DNA from: Acidobacteriota bacterium
GTDB taxonomy: Bacteria > Acidobacteriota > Terriglobia > Acidiferrales > UBA7541
Direction of reading: 5' to 3'
DNA length: 55,575 nucleotides
Assembly: GCA_003223255.1 (NCBI GenBank)
Contig: QHYJ01000081.1
Span: 1-55,575, forward strand
Numbering within the stretch: the first letter of the stretch is position 1; each line of letters begins with the position of its first letter. The translations under genes and the position numbers were made by a program. The notes below the pieces were generated by a model. It was not told where the DNA came from. It saw only the letters and a program-made list of their open reading frames with translations, and did not search any database. Positions 33,642 to 49,246 of the stretch are shown piece by piece.

Positions 33642-33866
33642 GCTAGACCTCTCTCCAAATCGAAGTGCGCCGCGCCAGTGATTAAGGAAGGCTTTTCGCG
33701 TTGCGGATCGGCGCGGATTACCGGATGCCATGTTAGGTGCGCGACAGAAGGAAAGTCAAACGCGTGCCGTACAATGGAGGGGTCCGGGGTACAGTAAGCT
33801 GCTGGCGGCACATCGCTACTGGAAATGAGAGGAGAAAGCGGGGCAAGCCGCACTCCAAAAGGTGAA

Positions 33867-35285
33867 ATGAAAAAGCAGCTACAAGTGATGAAGTTTGGCG
33901 GGACGTCGGTGGGCGACCCCTCGTGCATCAGCCGGGCGGCGAAGATCATTGTAGATGCGGCCAGGGACTATCGTTGTGTTGCGGTTGTTTCCGCCATGAG
34001 TGGCGTTACGAACCGGTTGATCGAAGCCGCGAATCATGCGCGGACCGGGAACGGAGCGGAGGCCACAGCAATATTGGAAGCGCTCCGGAAGCAGCACGAA
34101 ACGGCGCTGGTGAGCTTGATTCCCCATGAAAAGGACCGTGAAGGGATCCGTAGAAAACTAGAAGAAGTTTTAGCGGAAGGGCGCCGACTTTGTGAGGGGA
34201 CGGCCCTGTTGCGGGAATTAACGCCGCGCACGCTCGATGCCGTGTCGAGTTTGGGAGAACGGCTTTCCGCGCCGCTGGTCGCGGCTGCCGTTAAAGAAAC
34301 GGGCGCGCAGAGCGAAGCCATTGAAGCGACGGAGCTCATCGTCACCGACGCGTTCCATGGCGGAGCGGAGCCGCAAATGCAATTGACGCGGAAAAAATCA
34401 CAGGCCCGGTTGCGGCCGCTCCTCGAAAAAGGAATTGTGCCGGTGGCGACCGGCTTTATTGGCGCGACGGTCGAAGGGCAGTTGACCACGCTGGGCCGAG
34501 GCGGTTCTGACTTTTCTGCAACCATTCTTGGAGCCGCGCTGGATGCGGACGAAGTCATTATCTGGACCGATGTGGACGGCGTGCTGACGGCGGATCCGCG
34601 GCTCGTTCCGGAAGCGCGCACCATTCCAGAGATTTCCTACCGCGAAGCGGCGGAGCTGGCATATTTTGGTGCGAAGGTGCTCCATCCCAAAACGCTAAAC
34701 CCCGTCGTGCAAGCGGCGATTCCCGTGTGGATCCGCAATAGTTTTGCGCCGGAGCGGCCGGGAACAAAGATTACGCCCGAGGGGCGCAGCATTGGCGGCG
34801 GCGTGAAGGCGCTGACGGCCATCCGGGATGTAACTTTAATCAGTGTGGGCGGGCCGGGGATTGTGGGGTTGCCGGACGTGGTCGGGAGGACGTTTTCAAC
34901 GACCGCGGAGTTGCGCGCCAACGTCTTGCTGATTTCGCAGTCCTCTTCGCAAAACGACATCTGCTTCATCGTTGCGTCGGCGGACGCGCAGCGAACGGTC
35001 GAAGCGTTGCGCAAGGAATTCGCGCAAGACCTGGCGCACCAAGACGTAGAACACATCACCGTGGATCCCAATATCGCGATTGTTGCCGTGGTGGGGGAAA
35101 ACATGCGCGGAATTCCGGGGATTGCAGGAAAAACCTTCAGCGCGCTGGGCCGCGACGGGGTGAACCTGATCGCCATCGCGCAAGGCTCGTCGGAGAGCAA
35201 CATCTCCTTCGTCATCGAAGAGAAGGTCGTGAAGACGGCACTTCGCACCGCGCATCGCGAATTTGGCCTGAATGCGGCTAGCTGA
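33867..35285 (+). CDS. lysC: Aspartate kinase
   Basis: 472 residues. Kinase domain with the signature [14 protein letters not shown], the [14 protein letters not shown] loop, [13 protein letters not shown], and [20 protein letters not shown]; then two ACT domains ([20 protein letters not shown] and [20 protein letters not shown]) that normally bind lysine or threonine for feedback control. It phosphorylates L-aspartate, the first step toward lysine, threonine and methionine. No homoserine dehydrogenase domain is fused. It stands alone, with a 12-bp-stem hairpin about 200 bases downstream. ATG at 33867 follows AAAGGTG; the frame is open 14 codons upstream. Confidence 0.95.
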
Positions 35286-35516: not shown

Positions 35517-35761
35517 TTCGGCTTGGGATTAGCTCGCCGCTTTCCAACTTCAGCCATACTCGCATGGCCCACCTCAACTAGCGTTGCGCACCGTCTGTAT
35601 CAAACAAGTTTCTTATGATCCCTGGCCACGGGTCATGGGACCATTGCCCTGAAGGTGTTCTCGACGCATCATTCCAATCTTTTGTTGATCCGAAAATAGA
35701 ACCGTGCTGTCAAATCGCTTTGCAGCAGGTAGACGAACCTTGTGGCAGTGGAACGCGGCAC

Positions 35762-36092
35762 GACGTGCACGCGGACGAAGCAGGCACATGGGCGGTTGTC
35801 GCAGTTCTACTTCAGCAGGGAGAAGATAATCCTTTTGAATTATGGAAGAGAAAAAGAGCAGGAAGAACGATTGGACGACATTCAGAATCGATGCATCACG
35901 GATACTGCCCTCTGATCGGAGCTATTACACATTTTCTGGATCTCTCACTACACCGCCTTGCAGCGAGGACGTGACATGGTTCGTGCTTAAGCACCCTACA
36001 ACCATTTCGGCAGAACAAATCGAGCAATTTTCTCAGCTGTACCACGGCCCACTCAGCCGTTGTACGACCGGATTGTGCTGGAAATCCAGTAA
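35762..36092 (+). pseudogene. Alpha-type carbonic anhydrase, frameshifted C-terminal half
   Basis: Three frames hold successive parts of an alpha-carbonic anhydrase. First VHADEAGTWAVVAVLLQQGE with DNPF, then in a second frame DRSYYTFSGSLTTPPCSEDV with TWFVLKHPTTISAEQIEQFS, and in a third RPTQPLYDRIVLEIQ up to the stop at 36092. The SLTTPPC motif is diagnostic. The N-terminal half with most zinc ligands is not recognisable, so the gene is dead. It marks the left end of the decayed accessory stretch. Confidence 0.65.
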
Positions 36093-36103
36093 GGGCATTG
36101 ACC

Positions 36104-36346
36104 ATGTCTGCCACCAGCATTGGCAACGCAAGAGAATCCCTGCGAGACGACGTGCCTCACAAGGAGCCGAATTCCCCTCCAGAAGTGCCGGACTTCTCTT
36201 TGGTTCTAGGAGGGCCGGTTTTTGAAAGCAAGATGAACGCATCCCTTAAGCGCCGAAACACGCCGGTCTTCGAATTCGCCAAAGCGCTGGTACATCAAAA
36301 TGGTCCGGCGCTTGTCGGCTGCAGCGTGAAATATGACTACGCGTAG
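36104..36346 (+). pseudogene. Fragment of a conserved membrane-associated protein
   Basis: About 80 codons. The start (MSATSIGNARESLRDD) and the segment PPEVPDFSLVLGGPVF resemble the N-terminus of a longer unnamed bacterial membrane protein that I recall. The sequence then diverges (KMNASLKRRNTPVFEFAKAL) and stops, so it seems truncated and joined to unrelated DNA. Low confidence in any function. Confidence 0.35.
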
Positions 36347-36648: not shown

Positions 36649-37392
36649 TCAATGTTGTGACGCAGTAGCGAGGGGTGGACGGGCCTCTATCGCCGACACG
36701 AACTGCTCGGAACTCGACACCCAGCCAAATAATTCTTGGATAGTCAAGAGGGAGGCCTCATGATTGCTTCGCGCCAAACCCTCACCAATGGGTTCGCCAG
36801 TACAGTCGGCCAGTAACAGGCACCTGTAATCCCGGAACATCGCGTCCCGGATTGTCGAATCCACGCATACGCTCGTTGTACACCCGGTAAAGATCAGGTT
36901 CTTGATTCCAAGCCTGTGCAAAATGTCGTCCAGTTCTGTTTGATAGAAACCGCTGAACCTGTGCTTATAGAGCACCCTGTCCTCGGCTTCCGGCCGAAGC
37001 TCTGCGATGACATCCGTGTTCCATGTATCGCGGATCAAAAATCTTCCTTGCCGACCGTCAGGAGCGAGGCTGGGCTGGCCGACACCGAAATGGAGATGGC
37101 GTACTCGGTTAGGCGAGTCAATGTCCCCGAGGTCCGATAGATCAGGTCGAAAGCCCATCTTCAGGTAAACGATTTTTATTCCTGCCTCGCGGGCCGCCAA
37201 AAGGACCTCCCGCGTCGGGCCGACCGCCTTCTGAACCATTGAAATGTCGATCCCTGCACGGTCGAAGAGTCCACCCTTTGAACAAAAGTCGTTCTGCATG
37301 TCCACAACAATCACGGCAGTCCGCGCGGTGTCGATCGTGATTGGCCCAGGAGTTGCTTCGATGGTTGCTTGCCCCCCTGTACTCATTCCCAT
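36649..37392 (-). CDS. Isochorismatase-family cysteine hydrolase
   Basis: 247 residues. Catalytic triad elements: Asp in AVIVVDMQNDFCSKGGLF, Lys in VLYKHRFSGFYQTELDDI, and Cys in LIFTGCTTSVCVDSTIRDAM. The closest type is RutB/ureidoacrylate or N-carbamoyl hydrolases rather than nicotinamidase, but the substrate is uncertain. The ATG at 37392 follows AAGGGA by 7 bases. It is the only gene of its island segment, between attachment-like sites 1 and 2, suggesting it was carried in as cargo. Confidence 0.85.
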   Translation of the reverse strand: MGMSTGGQATIEATPGPITIDTARTAVIVVDMQNDFCSKGGLFDRAGIDISMVQKAVGPTREVLLAAREAGIKIVYLKMGFRPDLSDLGDIDSPNRVRHLHFGVGQPSLAPDGRQGRFLIRDTWNTDVIAELRPEAEDRVLYKHRFSGFYQTELDDILHRLGIKNLIFTGCTTSVCVDSTIRDAMFRDYRCLLLADCTGEPIGEGLARSNHEASLLTIQELFGWVSSSEQFVSAIEARPPLATASQH

Positions 37393-37467
37393 AGGGATGT
37401 CCCTTCCCTGGTTGCTTCTCTGACGACCTCCCGCTGAGCAAAGGAACTGTATAACAAAGAACAAAAA

Positions 37468-37520
37468 CAAGGTAGGAAATCACGGGCAGAAAATCGAGCG
37501 CGGACTCGAATCGAGCCGCT
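37468..37520. repeat. Attachment-like site 2, degraded
   Basis: Two 14-bp repeats (CAAGGTAGGAAATC at 37468 and ACGGGCAGAAAATC at 37482) are followed by GCGGACTCGAA, matching the T-arm part of the tRNA-Val copies at sites 1 and 3; the rest of the tRNA segment is lost. The next gene begins within a few bases, so this site may be a deletion junction. Confidence 0.5.
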
Positions 37521-39139: not shown

Positions 39140-39366
39140 CTACTTTGCCTGCGGCACTTCGACAAGATGTTCGGCTAGCGCTACCCATTGACCGTTACGA
39201 TGAATATAAGTCCCCGTATATCTGCCTACCGACGTGTATGCTGCGCCGCTCTTTGTCCCACGCAGAGTGTCGGTGCCAACGACGACTGCCGTATCGTTGT
39301 CTATGATTACGTTTTGGTCGGTCAGGGTTTGGGATTCTGTTGGATCGACATCGCCCGAGGACGTGA
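39140..39366 (-). pseudogene. SnoaL/DUF4440-like fragment
   Basis: About 74 codons up to a stop at 39140: TDQNVIIDNDTAVVVGTDTL, GRYTGTYIHRNGQWVALAEH, LVEVPQAK. These are the C-terminal strands of the NTF2-like DUF4440 fold (alternating V-x-V, then a W in a GRWxL-like turn). The N-terminal part is missing; upstream it is joined directly to a PLP-enzyme fragment. Confidence 0.55.
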
Positions 39367-39743
39367 TGCACCGTGATGCCCATGTTCGGAAACACGTCGC
39401 GCATCAGCCGGTATGTTCCGCCGCAAAGCTGTGCCGTCGAGATTAGCTCGTGGCCGGCCTTCAGCGCTGCCAGGAGCGACGAAGAAACCGCCGCCATGCC
39501 AGAAGCGGCCACGACCGCGGCTTCCGCGCCCTCAAGTGCCGCGATTTTCTTTTCCGCGACGGACAGCGTGGGATTGCCATACCGAGTGTAGATGTACGCC
39601 TTGTTCTTCCCTTCGGCCCACTCCTTCATTTTTTCCGTATTGGAAAAGGTGAACGTCGAGGTGCGAATAATCTCCGTGACGACAGGGCCGTTCACACCGT
39701 GGCGTTCCGGTTCACCGCCATGAATGGCCTTGGTTTGCGGACC
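39366..39743 (-). pseudogene. Cys/Met-metabolism PLP enzyme, N-terminal fragment
   Basis: Reads as the first third of the enzyme encoded intact at 47141-48325: GPQTKAIHGGEPERHGVNGP, KNKAYIYTRYGNPTLSVAEK, GGTYRLMRDVFPNMGITVHH, about 85 percent alike in that stretch by eye. It breaks off just after VHHV, before the PLP lysine, and is replaced by the DUF4440 fragment. It cannot be active. Same orientation and order relative to the redoxin gene as in the intact copy. Confidence 0.75.
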
Positions 39744-39980
39744 AAGCCTGCTTAGGCCGTTGTTAGCCTGACGACCGAGGCCGACCAGCTCGCCGGTCCT
39801 TGTTTGGGCAGGGGGCTTGGGTTGTCTTGTAGTTCTCACGGCCTCAGTTTGCGCCCACTCTCGGGAGAAAAACATCCTCAAATTGGCGCTTGGCTGGACA
39901 AATTGGGTGGCTACCCGGTTCATGTTTGTAGGGCGACTTTACGCCGCCATTCTCTTCTTTTGCATTTTGTTTACTGCTTA

Positions 39981-41288
39981 CTACTTATGGCGAATTTTCA
40001 CTGGCGCGCGCGTGCGGTCCAAAGGAAGCACCTGGATTTGCCATTTCACCGGAACGGATGCGGGCAAATAGCAAATCGTTTTGTCACATGCCTGATATTC
40101 GAGCTTGCCGGCGATGGTGAAGGTCTTTCCTTCTTCGCCCAGCGAGCCCCAGAACGCCGCGGCGGAGCTGACTTTCACGTCCTGGCTAATGCGAAATGTT
40201 CCTTCAAAGACGGGCACTTTCTCTTTGATGGCAGGGAGATAAAGAATTTTTGAAGGCGGGTAAACAGCGGGCTTGAATTCCATTTGCGGCATGGCGTCCA
40301 GCTCAAGCTGGATGGGCTTGTAACCCTGCGTGCCAGGTGCGTACACGTGCACGTCCGGAGGCAGACGCACGTCCGCGACCAGAGTCAGATGAGTGCCGGG
40401 AACGCCGGTGCGGTCGGATTGCTCCAGTGCCAGTTGCAGATGCGGTGCTTCTACGGTGTCCACCACTTCTTCGCCTAGCTCCGGAAAAAGTTTGGCGAGC
40501 AGGCTATTGCCGGTGAGGCGCTCGCGGTACTTGGCTTCGAAAAACTTTTCTGTGATGATGCCGTTGGAATCGATGAAAAAGTATCCGGGACGCGCAAAAC
40601 CTTTCTGCATTCCGGTCGCTTCCGCGTTGAAGACGCCGTAAGCCCGGATGATCTTCGACTCCGGGTCGGCGAGCATCGGGTAGCCGATCTTGTGGCGGTC
40701 GGAGAAAAATTTGAGGATTTCTTCGGAGTCGTAGCTGACGGCCGCGAACTTGAGCCCTTGCTTTTCGAATCTGGGCATCGCGCTTTGCAACTCGACCAGT
40801 TGCCCTTTGCAGAAGGGTCACCAGTCGGCGGAACGGAAAAAGAGAAGAACGGTGCCGTTCGCGCCTTTCAGAGAATCGAGAGATTGCGTCCGGCCAAATT
40901 GATCGTGCAGCGAGAAGTTCGGCGCTTTTTGACCCACCGCGAGCCCGATGGACATCAATTCGAGTGAGGTAGCGTGAATCGTTTCGCCATCGAGAGTCCC
41001 GCGCACGGTGACGCTGTCGCCCAAATGACCCGTAGCCAAGGCTTGCGGCTCCAGTGAATACATCACGCGGTTCGTGTCGTCATAGAGCGACAATTTCGCG
41101 CCCGGTGTCGCCCGGAAACATTCCGGCGATTCGTTGAACGCTTCGTCCGCGTTGCAACTGCTGTACACAATCGTGCCGGACCATGCTCCGGAAATGGGCG
41201 AGGCGGCTTGTTGCGCCAAAGCGAGCGAGGGTATCGACAAAACAGTAGCGAACGCGGCGGCTAGAAGGAAATGGCATCGCTTGGTCAT
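39981..41288 (-). CDS. Probable selenoprotein: Sec-containing redoxin fused to an nDsbD-like domain
   Basis: 435 residues if the TGA at 40818-40820 is read as selenocysteine (residue 157). Signal peptide (MTKRCHFLLAAAFATVLSIP), a small beta domain with a Cys pair (SSCNADEAFNESPECF), an AhpC/TSA-type redoxin (LAVGQKAPNFSLHDQFGRTQ, LFFRSADW-TGA-PFCKGQL), and a C-terminal DsbD-alpha-like domain with EYQACDKTICYLP. The TGA falls exactly where the first Cys of the redoxin CxxC belongs, the frame stays coding for 278 more residues, the next base is C, and a hairpin with loop GGTCG starts 14 bases on. I propose a periplasmic UxxC oxidoreductase exchanging electrons with its own DsbD-like domain. A nonsense mutation is the alternative. 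Confidence 0.72.
40787..40803 (-). promoter_or_regulatory. Candidate bacterial SECIS hairpin
   Basis: GCAACTGGTCGAGTTGC: a 6-bp perfect stem with loop GGUCG in the mRNA. The first loop G is 21 bases after the UGA, inside the 16-37 range of known bacterial elements, and the GGUC loop matches that of the E. coli fdhF SECIS. A second, smaller hairpin (CCCUU/AAGGG) lies between it and the UGA. Confidence 0.6.
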
Positions 41289-42805: not shown

Positions 42806-43153
42806 ATGCGCAAGACAACCAGTTGGATCGCAGGGATCACGGTGATTGCCGTTGTACTGGCCACGATCGTTTTCCTGAGCGCCCCGGCGAACGCAGACTC
42901 CGCCGCTGCCGAAGCCACGTACAAGGCAAAGTGCGCCGGCTGCCACGGACCGGATGGCAGGGGCGAAACGGCCACGGGCAAGATGATGAAGGTGAAGGAC
43001 TTTTCTTCCGAGGAAGTCCAGAAGATGAGCGATGCAGACTTGTTTGCGGCCATCAGCTCCGGCAAGGGCAAGATGCCGCCGTATAAAACGCTCTCCGCGG
43101 ACCAGGCGAAGGACCTCGTGGCTTTCATCCGAGCATTCGAGAAAAAGAAGTAA
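42806..43153 (+). CDS. Small exported cytochrome c
   Basis: 115 residues. Signal peptide (MRKTTSWIAGITVIAVVLAT, cleavage near ANADS), one haem site CAGCH, and the axial Met in KGKMPPYKTLSADQ. Class I mono-haem electron carrier in the periplasm. Strong AGGAGGAAGG site 5 bases before the ATG and a good promoter upstream. First of two similar cytochromes followed by a multihaem NapC-like protein, probably one electron-transfer unit. Confidence 0.92.
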   Translation: MRKTTSWIAGITVIAVVLATIVFLSAPANADSAAAEATYKAKCAGCHGPDGRGETATGKMMKVKDFSSEEVQKMSDADLFAAISSGKGKMPPYKTLSADQAKDLVAFIRAFEKKK

Positions 43154-43243
43154 CTGGACGAACTCGAGACGGATTTGCTGGCGCGAAGTGTTCTCCACGC
43201 GAAAGGCGTGGCGCGTCATCACCATCAAGGCAAGGAGAAAAAC

Positions 43244-43534
43244 ATGAAGAAGGTTATTTCAGGGATTGCAGTAGTTGCCATGCTGTGCCTGGTAGGCTCA
43301 GTCTCTCGAGCCGACGATACGGCCAACGGTGAGAAAACTTTCAAAGCGAAGTGCGCCGCTTGTCACGGCCCGGATGCGGCCGGCAAGCCCGCGATGAAAT
43401 CGCCGTCGATCAAGGGCAAAACGGCCGAGGACATTCAGAAAGCGATCTCCACTTCGCCGAAGCACGCCAGCTTGAAGAGTCTAACTGCGGACCAGGTGAA
43501 CGAACTCGCTGCTTATCTGGCCACCTTGAAGTAG
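43244..43534 (+). CDS. Small exported cytochrome c
   Basis: 96 residues. Signal peptide (MKKVISGIAVVAMLCLVGSV, cleavage near SRADD), haem site CAACH, and a C-terminal helix VNELAAYLATLK. The usual loop Met is not obvious after PAMKSPSIKG. Paralogue of the upstream cytochrome (same KAKCA-CHGPD core). AAGGAG ribosome-binding site; 90-bp gap from the first gene, so likely co-transcribed. Confidence 0.9.
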   Translation: MKKVISGIAVVAMLCLVGSVSRADDTANGEKTFKAKCAACHGPDAAGKPAMKSPSIKGKTAEDIQKAISTSPKHASLKSLTADQVNELAAYLATLK

Positions 43535-43643
43535 CTAAAACCAGTACCTTCGGTCTCAGGGTTTTCGGTCGGAGATGAACTTCAAGATATATCGAACACG
43601 ACGAACTGCAGAGCCATTGGATTAGTTCTTGCTTCCGCGCGAC

Positions 43644-43670
43644 AGCCCCGGAGCTCCCCGGGCCGGGGCT
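43644..43670 (+). terminator. Hairpin between the small cytochromes and the NapC-like gene
   Basis: AGCCCCGG/CCGGGGCT, 8-bp perfect stem with an 11-base loop, followed by CTCCTTGT. It may attenuate transcription into the multihaem gene or separate two units. Confidence 0.45.
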
Positions 43671-43728
43671 CTCCTTGTAAGAGAAGGCTTTTCTTCCCGG
43701 AAGAGGAGTAAGGCGAACACACCTCGAT

Positions 43729-45114
43729 ATGACCATTCGCGAAACGATCCGGAGCTGGGTGCGGCTCCTGTACTTTCTTGGACAAAATCCCGTCAGTTTC
43801 GTCGGCGCCGTGCTCACCACCAGCGGCGCGGTTACCCTCATGGCCTTCTGGTTTTATGATTTTCTGCTCCCAGGACCGCCCCATCCTTATATTGGCATTT
43901 TGCTCTTTCTGATTTTGCCGGGAGTTTTCGCCCTCGGTTTGTTGATTATTCCCGTCGGAATTTTGGTGCGCCGCCACAAGCTCAAAGCCCAGGGACAGCT
44001 CCTGGACATTTATCCGGCGACCAATCTTCGCGAGCCCATGGTCCGTCACGGAGTTTTTGTCGTCGGGGCCGCAACCTTTGTAAACGTCCTCATCTTCGGA
44101 ACCGCTTCGTACCGCGGCGTCGAGTACATGGATTCCACGCAATTCTGCGGGCAAACCTGCCACACGGTCATGACACCGGAGTTTACCGCCTATCAAAACT
44201 CCCCTCACGCGCGCGTCAACTGCGTGGAATGCCACATCGGTCCGGGACCAGGATGGTTCGTACGTTCTAAGCTCTCGGGCGTGCGGCAGGTTTTCGCGGT
44301 TACCTTTCATACCTACTCACGGCCCATTCATGCGCCGGTCAAATACCTGCGCCCCGCGCGGGAAACCTGCGAGCAGTGCCACTGGCCGCAGCGCTTCACC
44401 GGGGACAAGTTCGTGGTGAAAACCACGTACAAGGACGACGAGAAGAACACTCCGCAGACCACTGTCATGTTGCTCAAGATCGGTGGCCACACGTGGCAAG
44501 GATCGGCGGGAATTCATGGCCGGCACCTTGATGAAGGTTCGCGTATCCGCTACATCTCCATTGACGATCAGCGCCAGGTGATTCCTGTCGTTTATTACGC
44601 CAACGACCAGGGCAAGACCGTCGAATACGTCTCGAGCGACATGCAAGCCACGAAGCAGCAACTGGACGCCGGGGAACATCGCTCGATGGACTGCGTGGAT
44701 TGTCATAATCGCCCGACCCACGCGTTCGACTTGCCGGAAACGGCCGTGAACCGGCAGATGTACGCGGGACGCATCAGCCCGGAATTACCGTTCATCCGCA
44801 AAAAAGCCGTGGAGCTTTTGAAGGCCGATTATCCCGACCGCAGCGCCGCGCAACAGCGCATTATCGACGAGCAGTCTGCGCAGAGCGTGGCAGACATCTA
44901 CCTGCGCAATATTTTCCCCTCGATGAAGGTGACCTGGGGCGTGCACCCCAACAACATCGGGCATACGGATTTTCCCGGCTGCTTCCGTTGTCACGATGGA
45001 AGCCATACGAGCGCAGACGGCCAAACGATTACGAACGATTGCTCCGCCTGCCACAATTTGTTGGCCGTGGAAGAAACGAACGCCAAGGTCCTGACCGATC
45101 TGGGGCTGAAATAA
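43729..45114 (+). CDS. NapC/NirT-like membrane multihaem cytochrome c
   Basis: 461 residues. Three N-terminal membrane helices (VGAVLTTSGAVTLMAFWFYD, ILLFLILPGVFALGLLIIPV, FVVGAATFVNVLIFGTASY), then a periplasmic domain with haem sites CGQTCH (CxxxCH spacing), CVECH, CEQCH, CVDCH, CFRCH and CSACH. NapC/NrfH relatives take electrons from quinol and pass them to periplasmic oxidoreductases; here the natural acceptors may be the two small cytochromes just upstream. The first, 5-spaced site is also found in this subfamily as far as I recall. Start ATG 43729 follows a weak GAGGAG further upstream. Confidence 0.9.
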   Translation: MTIRETIRSWVRLLYFLGQNPVSFVGAVLTTSGAVTLMAFWFYDFLLPGPPHPYIGILLFLILPGVFALGLLIIPVGILVRRHKLKAQGQLLDIYPATNLREPMVRHGVFVVGAATFVNVLIFGTASYRGVEYMDSTQFCGQTCHTVMTPEFTAYQNSPHARVNCVECHIGPGPGWFVRSKLSGVRQVFAVTFHTYSRPIHAPVKYLRPARETCEQCHWPQRFTGDKFVVKTTYKDDEKNTPQTTVMLLKIGGHTWQGSAGIHGRHLDEGSRIRYISIDDQRQVIPVVYYANDQGKTVEYVSSDMQATKQQLDAGEHRSMDCVDCHNRPTHAFDLPETAVNRQMYAGRISPELPFIRKKAVELLKADYPDRSAAQQRIIDEQSAQSVADIYLRNIFPSMKVTWGVHPNNIGHTDFPGCFRCHDGSHTSADGQTITNDCSACHNLLAVEETNAKVLTDLGLK

Positions 45115-47140: not shown

Positions 47141-48325
47141 TTATTCCAGCGCCTGCTTCAAATCCTCGATCAAATCCTCTTTGTCTTCCAATCCCATGGA
47201 AACGCGCACCGTCCCCGGGCTGACTCCCGCGCGCTTCAATTCTTCGTCGCTCATGTTGTAGTGCGAACTGTAAATCGGCAGGATCACCAGCGACTCCACG
47301 CCGCCCAGGCTCGCCGCCAACAAGAACAGCTGTACGCGATCGCAGAATCGTCGCGCCACCGGCAATCCGCCCTTCATATCAAACGCCAGCATCGAGCCGA
47401 AGCCCCGCATCTGTTTTTTCGCCAGCGCGTGGTCCGGGTGCGACTTCAATCCCGGATAGTGTACGCGCTCGACTTTCGGATGCTTCTCCAAAAACGTCGC
47501 CACCGCCATCGCGTTTTCGCACTGCCGCTGCACGCGCACGCCCAGCGTCTTGATTCCCCGAATCAGCAGATATGCCGCGCCAGGATCCATCGAGCCCCCG
47601 AGATAAATGATCATGTGGCGCACTTTGTCCATCCACGCTTCGCTGCCCACGGAGACGCCCGCGATGATGTCCGAATGTCCGGCCAACGCTTTCGTCGCGC
47701 TGTGCACCACCATGTCGTAGCCCAGCGCGATGGGATTTTGCAGCACCGGCGTCGCGAATGTGTTGTCCATCAGCGCGACGAGTTTGTGCTTTTTCGCGAA
47801 CTCCACCGCTTTTTCGATGTCCACCAGCCGCAGCGTGGGATTCGTGGGCGTTTCGACGTACAGCGCCTTCGTGCGGGCGTTGACTAGTCTTTCGATACCA
47901 CAGAGATCCGGCGGGACGTGGTGTACCGTTATGCCCAGGTTGGGAAACACGTCGCGCATCAACCGGTACGTCCCGCCGTAAAGCTGCGCCGTGGAGATGA
48001 GTTCGTCTCCGCCCTTCAGCACCGCCAGGAGCGACGAGGAAATCGCCGCCATGCCCGAAGCAGTCACCACCGCCGCCTCCGCGCCTTCGAGCGCCGCGAT
48101 TTTCTTTTCCGCCACGCTGAGCGTCGGATTCCCGTAGCGCGTGTAGATGTACGCCTTGTTCTTCCCCTCCGCCCACTCCTTCATTTCCTCCGTGTTGGAA
48201 AACGTGAACGTCGACGAGCGAACGATCTCGGTCACAATAGGGCCATTAACCCCGTAGCGGTTCGGTTCCCCGCTGTGAATGGCTTTGGTTTGAGGACCTT
48301 GGCTGGCTAGCTTTTTCGTGTTCAT
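47141..48325 (-). CDS. Cys/Met-metabolism PLP enzyme (gamma-lyase or gamma-synthase type)
   Basis: 394 residues, full length for the fold-type I trans-sulfuration family. PLP site: MVVHSATKALAGHSDIIAGV with the Schiff-base Lys; active-site Tyr/Arg region YIYTRYGNPTLSVAEKKIAA; phosphate-binding ASGMAAISSSLLAVL; C-terminal Arg in ILPIYSSHYNMSDEELKRAG and SPGTVRVSMGLED. It could be methionine gamma-lyase, cystathionine gamma-synthase or O-acetylhomoserine sulfhydrylase; residues that separate these are not decisive by eye. A truncated second copy lies at 39366-39743. The frame begins with MNTKKLASQGPQTKAIHSGE. Confidence 0.92.
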   Translation of the reverse strand: MNTKKLASQGPQTKAIHSGEPNRYGVNGPIVTEIVRSSTFTFSNTEEMKEWAEGKNKAYIYTRYGNPTLSVAEKKIAALEGAEAAVVTASGMAAISSSLLAVLKGGDELISTAQLYGGTYRLMRDVFPNLGITVHHVPPDLCGIERLVNARTKALYVETPTNPTLRLVDIEKAVEFAKKHKLVALMDNTFATPVLQNPIALGYDMVVHSATKALAGHSDIIAGVSVGSEAWMDKVRHMIIYLGGSMDPGAAYLLIRGIKTLGVRVQRQCENAMAVATFLEKHPKVERVHYPGLKSHPDHALAKKQMRGFGSMLAFDMKGGLPVARRFCDRVQLFLLAASLGGVESLVILPIYSSHYNMSDEELKRAGVSPGTVRVSMGLEDKEDLIEDLKQALE

Positions 48326-48580
48326 GCGAACGAGTGTGCGCTATCTCCGCTAAGAAAAACAGTCTCGAGTGCGGCGTAAGACTGGACAATTTGGGCGGGT
48401 TCCGGTGGCACGCCCTAGCACCTAGCACCGACTTTATGTTGCCACTCTTTTTCCGTCTGCAGGAACAAGATGGCGGTGTAAGATCACAATTCGTTGCGCT
48501 CAAGCTTACCGGGCTTCACAGAGAGCGTCAGGCTTCTCGTTCGGCGTGAGGTTCGCAGCAGGCGACGACGTCCGGCGAAT

Positions 48581-49246
48581 TCATTTGTGGCGAATTTCGA
48601 CCGGGGCGCGAGTGCGGTCGAGAGGAAAAACCTGCACTTGCCATTTCAACGGGACAGACGTGGGCAAATAGCAGATGGTTTTGTCGCAAGCCTGATATTC
48701 GAGCTTCCCGGTGACCGTAAAGGTCTTTCCTTCTTTGCCCAGCGAGCCCCAGAACTCCGCCGTCGAGCTGACCTTCGCATCTTGGTCGATCCGGAACGTT
48801 CCTTCAAAAACGGGCACGTTCTCTTTGATCGCGGGCCGATAAAGAATGTTGGGCTGCGGGTAAGTGACGGGCTTGCGTTCCATTTGCGGGATCGCGTCCA
48901 TCACAAGTTGGATGGGCTTGTAGCCTTGCACGCCGGGCGCGTACACCGGACGGTGACCGTGTCACCCCGATGACCGCCAATGAGCGACTGCGGCTCGAGA
49001 CCGTACATCATGCGGTTGGTATCGTCGTAGAGAGAGAATTTCGCACCTGGTGTGCTTATGAAGCATTCACGAGATTCATTGGAGGCTTCGTCGGCGTTGC
49101 AACTGCTGTAAACAATGATGCCCGACCATGCTCCGGAATTGGCCGTTTTGTTCTGCCCATCTAGGGTCTAGGATGGTCGCGAAAGAACTAAGCGCCATCA
49201 GAAAGATAAAGATGCGCATCGCAACCGGCCGAGATCTGAACGCCAT
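48581..49246 (-). pseudogene. Redoxin/nDsbD gene, internally deleted paralogue of the selenoprotein
   Basis: Both ends match 39981-41288. The 5' end reads signal-like sequence, then in a shifted frame SGAWSGIIVYSSCNADEASN, LYDDTNRMMYGLEPQSLI and GDTVTVR. The 3' end reads VYAPGVQGYKPIQLVMDAIP to EYQACDKTICYLP and ends at 48581. Between VTVR and VYAPG about 225 residues are missing, including the whole redoxin with its UxxC position, and the junction near 48950 is out of frame. A second frame change lies near 49140. It precedes the intact PLP enzyme gene in the same order as the other copy. Confidence 0.75.

Follow-up and report, generated by a model that had tools for sequence, protein, structure and literature searches.

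The window analysed here, a 55,575-nucleotide stretch of acidobacterial DNA, very probably encodes a selenocysteine (Sec) protein, read through an in-frame UGA and ending in an nDsbD-like domain; it is probably exported and probably a thiol:disulfide oxidoreductase. On the evidence of sequence comparison, decoding of this UGA, at residue 157, as Sec is near certain in silico. The features of the gene are collected in Table 1.

Table 1. Features of the predicted selenoprotein gene in the window.
Feature	Position	Strand	Basis or remark
Predicted selenoprotein gene, read through TGA	39981..41288	minus	435 codons + stop; same TGA in homologues
Signal-peptide-like N terminus, residues 1-26	41211..41288	minus	judged by eye
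Small beta domain, residues about 27-111	40956..41210	minus	weak DUF5818 match
AhpC-TSA/redoxin domain, residues 113-263, with predicted Sec157-x-x-Cys160	40500..40952	minus	PF00578
Predicted Sec-UGA, residue 157 of 435, context ADW-U-PFC	40820-40818	minus	
Predicted bSECIS hairpin GCAACU-GGUCG-AGUUGC, loop 40797-40793	40803-40787	minus	comparison + covariation
nDsbD-like (DsbD-alpha) domain, residues 272-435	39984..40475	minus	PF11412 + fold

In the window translation, the gene is on the minus strand; it extends from an ATG at 41288-41286 to a stop codon at 39983-39981, and its frame stays open for 278 codons past the TGA at 40820-40818. The earlier note, which left the strand unstated, had placed this TGA at the first Cys of the redoxin CxxC and had described a protein-like frame of 278 codons after it. 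The coordinates and the length both hold, and the codon-position changes after the TGA, in comparison with four relatives, fall mostly in position 3 (for example 7, 3 and 32 over 99 codons). It had also expected a conventional caller to split the gene, and translation under table 11 indeed yields two ORFs, 41528-40818 and 40790-39981.

Alignment of homologues at residue 157, a check proposed in the earlier note, returned Cys or TGA only, both within the class and outside it. We surveyed 299 genomes of the class, 80 of which had a match at E 1e-20, scoring at most five candidates per genome and leaving out one genome (G173) whose match lacks residue 157. Among the matches listed, the residue was TGA in 67 of 79 genomes, Cys (TGC or TGT) in 12 of 79 and another codon in 0 of 79, two genomes (G036 and G215) being scored as Cys forms on short and remote matches. 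A phylum-wide draw of 396 genomes gave matches at E 1e-30 in 49, of which 45 lie outside the class; the matches of five of these 45 lacked residue 157 and were left out, and the remaining 40 genomes gave 53 matches, a set that was not made unique and leans to one genus (g166), with TGA in 49, Cys in 4 and no other codon in any of the 53. In 37 of the 40 genomes there was at least one TGA form, and members of the family are found in several acidobacterial classes. In one outside-class genome (G404), a TGA form and a TGC form are found together (L206 and L215).

Among the named relatives with a DsbD part, all but one are acidobacterial records, for the most part MAGs, and several bear the titles gp2 or Terriglobia. 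The exception is a record titled Formivibrio sp. (Pseudomonadota; L069), whose gene nests inside the acidobacterial clade and which is probably a misbinned contig. The loci with non-acidobacterial titles (L089-L138) all have Cys, and their matches are confined to the redoxin part; this redoxin-only set came from peptide patterns and is biased, because one pattern (ADWCPFCK) requires Cys, whereas the genome-level count of 67 and 12 of 79 was built on the class survey, which is free of that bias. Within the same genus as the window, we also observed a decayed extra copy of the selenoprotein gene (L182, at G146:C120:19300-19900), which has a TAG in addition to the TGA and ADG replacing ADW.

The TGA lies one base from TGC and TGT, and the same window contains a broken second copy of the gene, both of which would suit an origin from a Cys gene, by sequencing error or by a recent nonsense mutation. 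However, the TGA counts given above come from many independent assemblies, the frame downstream is under coding constraint, and the hairpin described below is a feature of the TGA genes that the Cys genes do not share, which leaves such an origin vanishingly improbable. The pseudogene and sequencing-error readings were rejected on the recurrence of the TGA and the coding constraint downstream of it.

The window's own genome (6.66 Mb in 428 contigs, 97% complete) carries the components for reading the UGA as Sec. A search for selA, selB, selC and selD, likewise proposed beforehand, found all four, each over its cut-off: selA at 566 bits (cut-off 268), selB at 360 bits (cut-off 242), selD at 350 bits (cut-off 125) and tRNA-Sec at 64.9 bits (cut-off 47), the last with the anticodon UCA according to ARAGORN. 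Of the outcomes that the earlier note had named as refuting, neither missing selenocysteine machinery nor a sense codon other than Cys at residue 157 was thus encountered. The selD gene itself has one in-frame TGA (KAAG-U). Six more likely selenoprotein genes were observed in this genome (L003, L005, L008, L196, L197 and L139), comprising TGGU and TSGU peroxiredoxin-like proteins, a YWUPFC redoxin, two WASWUGC proteins and the SelD with KAAGU, so that at least seven are likely when the ADW-U-PFC fusion is included.

Since some homologues have Cys at residue 157, a suppressor or a change of the genetic code might instead cause the UGA to be read as Cys or Trp. This is very improbable: the genome encodes a tRNA-Sec (UCA) together with selA, selB and selD, the bSECIS is found in the TGA forms and is missing from the Cys forms, and TGA still acts as an ordinary terminator in two of eight checked ORFs of the window (33825-35285 and 36649-37470).

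The 17-base hairpin, whose loop GGUCG had been noted 21 bases after the UGA, was verified in position and sequence; 20 nt separate the UGA from the loop, whose first base is thus 21 nt after it, and the hairpin starts 15 nt downstream. Its reality is supported by comparison and covariation, not by folding energy. Single-sequence folding gave no excess stability over shuffles (z -0.22, -0.94 and -0.57 for 63, 50 and 40 nt), only for the 40-nt piece did the MFE helix consist of the hairpin alone, and an Rfam scan of the window returned only a tRNA. The energy was -7.9 kcal/mol with one flanking base on each side and -6.5 for the bare 17-mer. In the available part of a 2026 review, the bSECIS model specifies a loop of 3-9 nt, a stem of 4-16 bp, a distance of 16-37 nt from the UGA, a G in the first two loop bases and an MFE of -7.5 or lower (PMC13188914). 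The hairpin here has a 5-nt loop, 6 bp, a GG loop start and a distance of 20 nt, and reaches the energy limit only with its flanking bases.

There are no indels between the TGA and the hairpin in TGA genes, so that positions can be compared directly. After rows identical over 117 nt had been dropped, all six pairs were intact in 69 of 78 distinct TGA genes, with at least one pair broken in the other 9. The corresponding counts of intact hairpins were 0 of 14 for Cys genes that include the DsbD part and 1 of 51 for redoxin-only Cys genes. In a held-out set consisting of the matches from other classes, for which the hairpin positions were fixed beforehand, the six pairs were intact in 48 of 49 TGA genes and in 0 of 4 Cys genes. 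An alignment of the hairpin region, from which rows identical over 45 nt as well as L182 and L195 were left out, had 97.9% of 426 cells paired (71 distinct sequences). Its covariation score was 0.278 compared with 0.110 +/- 0.012 for shuffles, none of 500 of which scored as high, and slid controls reached at most 0.069; further pair types, one of the five covariation measures, were not above shuffles (311 of 500). Two hairpin pairs covary strongly. Pair 18-34 is mostly G-C or C-G, and pair 21-31, made of the third base of the Gln163 codon and the first base of the Leu167 codon, is G-C or A-U through silent changes (CAG with CTG in 53 of 78 genes, CAA with TTG in 19, CAG with TTG in 3 and other combinations in 3).

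The coding sequence around the loop appears to be similarly restricted. A G stands within the first two loop bases in all 78 TGA genes, 77 of which also have G as the third base of codon 166. Val165 is present in 77 of 78 TGA genes, but in only 3 of the 14 DsbD-bearing and 9 of the 51 redoxin-only Cys genes, and would seem to be kept in the TGA genes as though the amino acid were fixed by the RNA loop. Silent variation at codons 159, 160 and 166 was 0.13, 0.07 and 0.02 in TGA genes versus 0.50, 0.50 and 0.49 in a Cys set that is broader and has a different host mix, so that the difference may partly be one of composition; codon 160 is TGC alone in all 14 Cys genes with the DsbD part too. Collectively, the six pairs kept in TGA genes, the covariation above shuffles and the fit to the published model bear out the bSECIS claim, and the comparison indicates that the hairpin is a real bSECIS.

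To place the Sec and Cys forms on a tree, we used 89 proteins, leaving out L182, L195 and rows whose match ends before residue 400. The Sec/Cys label needed seven changes, and the well-supported branches force seven. Of seven independent pairs, an average of 6.5 showed the hairpin changing together with Sec and none showed the reverse (median p 0.016, range 0.016-0.125 over pairings), indicating that Sec and Cys were switched at least seven times with the hairpin following. A selA gene over the cut-off was found in 63 of 67 TGA genomes versus 4 of 12 Cys genomes, a difference for which the Fisher test overstates the evidence, the genomes being related; the independent-pairs test corrects for kinship only for the hairpin and not for selA. 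The four TGA genomes with no selA over the cut-off are 73, 79, 81 and 88% complete, and one of them has a 153-bit fragment. The presence of selA in four Cys genomes (G206, G252, G264 and G036) implies that hosts able to make Sec sometimes forgo it in this protein. In genus g8, one genome with a TGA form (G098) has selA and two with TGC forms (G102 and G126) are without it, the genes not being sisters on the tree.

The predicted protein has four parts (Table 1). Alignments A1 and A3 were built from the 30 loci L059-L088, A1 without L066, L078, L082 and L085 and A3 without L082; A2 omitted L064 in addition to the four missing from A1, and included 16 loci out of the 50 in L089-L138. The small N-terminal domain gave a DUF5818 match in 10 of 27 members, and Cys45 and Cys57 occur in 22 of 27 A1 rows, namely those having this domain, which is absent from five remoter rows. 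Residues 157, 160, 401 and 406 are invariant in the 27 A1 rows (Sec written as C), as is Pro234. AlphaFold2 run on 42 sequences gave a mean pLDDT of 91.7 and a pTM of 0.84. The earlier note had described a UxxC redoxin fused to a DsbD-alpha-like domain, and both halves of this description are sustained: PF00578 scored 112.4 bits (cut-off 26) over a domain with the motif U157-P-F-C160, and PF11412 scored 32.8 bits (cut-off 25) in the window protein and matched 23 of 27 members at E 0.001. No NCBIfam cut-off was passed, the scores being 45.3 of 120 bits for the SelL-related redox protein and 24.1 of 300 for WAxxUGC_long.

The best solved relatives of the redoxin part are peroxiredoxins, which raises the question of whether the protein acts as a peroxiredoxin-type peroxidase with Sec. 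The closest, the 1-Cys peroxiredoxin AhpE of Mycobacterium tuberculosis, matches the predicted fold (Z 22 over 150 residues) with 31% identity (31-32% by Foldseek), and ResA (4nmu), a thiol-disulfide oxidoreductase, gave a sequence match at E 1e-11 that was weaker than that of AhpE. Alignment with AhpE places Cys160 at the peroxidatic Cys, and puts Sec157 at the Thr and Pro234 at the Arg, which we take to be, with that Cys, the catalytic positions of AhpE and other peroxiredoxins. When the protein was tested for PxxxTxxC/U and the catalytic Arg, the P, T and R positions held Arg152, Sec157 and Pro234, and membership of the peroxiredoxins was rejected on the replacement of the aligned Thr and Arg. 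Because the domain has lost these catalytic residues, a thiol:disulfide oxidoreductase fits better than a peroxidase; we consider the former probable and the latter unlikely. The residue arrangement is that expected of a thioredoxin-type CxxC enzyme with a Sec nucleophile, rather than of a peroxidase. In the available part of the 2026 review, peroxiredoxin selenoproteins carry PxxxTxxU, whereas UxxC is listed as a motif of Prx-like oxidoreductases (PMC13188914).

The C-terminal domain, folded alone, reached a pLDDT of 89.1, and its first 11 structural neighbours were nDsbD or ScsB N-terminal domains (Z 9.9-11.8), with other folds at 9.1 or lower. Identity to these domains is only 10-13%, and a phmmer search of this part against the PDB found no relative (one chance match, E 0.44), so that the nDsbD assignment rests on Pfam and fold. 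Compared with whole DsbD, the protein is without the membrane domain and the C-terminal thioredoxin domain, neither of which gave a Pfam match in it at E 0.1. The domain shares an immunoglobulin-like fold with many binding domains, which appear among its structural neighbours from the twelfth down, and it might be a docking or substrate-binding module that exchanges no electrons with its own redoxin domain. We hold this to be possible but somewhat doubtful, as both Cys401 and Cys406 (YQAC-x4-C) are invariant in all 30 A3 rows, as expected of a redox pair, and nDsbD is a redox shuttle in known systems.

For the relay, which we favour slightly, electrons would pass through the protein's own nDsbD domain. 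SelB and tRNA-Sec would decode UGA 157 as Sec under guidance of the hairpin, and the protein, judging from its N terminus, is probably exported and periplasmic. Reducing power would cross the membrane via a CcdA-type carrier, enter the CxxxxC of the nDsbD-like domain and then reduce the Sec157-Cys160 selenenylsulfide, to be spent finally on an oxidised periplasmic substrate; Sec157 would be the attacking nucleophile and Cys160 would resolve it as the selenenylsulfide. The own genome has a CcdA-type carrier of 298 aa beside two CxxC thioredoxin-like genes (G000:C62:32388-34430), which are likely the cell's electron route to the periplasm. No full DsbD was found in it, PF02683 being detected only in the 298-aa CcdA-type gene; another nDsbD-like protein (240 aa) is encoded at C255, where it stands by itself. 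Across 30 loci and the window (ORFs of at least 110 aa, with many short flanks), no conserved gene neighbourhood hinted at a partner or substrate. Only three ORFs besides the gene itself recurred in at least four loci, at shifting distances: one sensor-like (7 loci), one regulator-like (4) and one that is an antisense shadow (9).

The window also contains a direct duplication on the minus strand with complementary decay. Copy A (39360-41288) holds the intact selenoprotein gene and a truncated PLP enzyme of Cys/Met metabolism, whereas in copy B (47144-49209) the PLP enzyme is intact and the selenoprotein gene is a remnant that matches residues 9-99 and 315-435, having lost the redoxin domain along with the UGA and hairpin. 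Among 60 loci tested, the PLP enzyme lies near the selenoprotein gene only in the window, L060/L031 and L061/L032, and the latter pairs look like two genomes each seen twice. Elsewhere on the plus strand, overlapping short ORFs in different frames at 35615-36346, with stretches presumably resembling carbonic anhydrase (FSGSLTTPPCSEDV), have the appearance of a frameshift-broken gene. The region 42806-45114 (plus strand, the one not used by the selenoprotein gene) carries two genes for small c-type cytochromes and one for a NapC/NirT-like multihaem cytochrome.

Selenoproteins of related design have been described. The table of the 2026 review, in its available part, lists Prx-like thiol:disulfide oxidoreductases (PF00578) with UxxC or UxxU, a UxxC 'Redoxin family protein' (PF08534) and TsoB (NF045694), a rhodanese/DsbD fusion-like selenoprotein with UxxxxU (PMC13188914). 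The window protein shares the domain family, the UxxC motif and Sec with the first two kinds, but adds a DsbD-alpha fusion and a small N-terminal Cys domain that are unnamed in that part of the review. It resembles TsoB in combining predicted Sec with a DsbD-like part, and in having a redox motif of two residues spaced by four; by the review's description, however, TsoB has Sec in UxxxxU, whereas here the nDsbD motif is CxxxxC and Sec lies in the redoxin domain. It likewise differs from AhpE, beyond residues 157 and 234, in its extra domains, and from ResA in having Sec and a fused nDsbD domain. For acidobacterial selenoproteins, the accessible text of the literature yielded nothing beyond counts, namely three families and four selenoproteins in a 2006 survey (PMC1794560) and three known selenoproteins in Occallatibacter riparius, with no names in the part seen, from deep-Sep (PMC12013277). 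The available parts of PMC9312934 and PMC5029168 hold nothing on a redoxin-DsbD fusion, and we found no published account of a redoxin-DsbD_N selenoprotein in the openly available text, so that an earlier listing is possible. The UxxC Prx-like kind is already published, and the redoxin-DsbD-alpha fusion is apparently unlisted; its wide recurrence in the phylum argues for a real selenoprotein version.

In summary, our analysis points to a widespread soil-bacterial selenoprotein that is cut in two by table-11 calling and falls below every NCBIfam cut-off. With at least seven switches between Sec and Cys, several in genomes without selA, the family offers a good natural experiment on the retention and loss of Sec, and the same switches provide a test of how far an RNA signal within coding sequence constrains the protein. 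Tentatively, and a little short of an even call, we propose a multi-class acidobacterial family in which a periplasmic Sec redoxin would carry its own DsbD-alpha shuttle in one chain, so that extracytoplasmic Sec turnover would require no more than a CcdA-type carrier; the bSECIS of this family would also dictate Val165 and Glu/Gln166, positions that would drift after a change from Sec to Cys. The protein also suggests an extracytoplasmic Sec redox relay.
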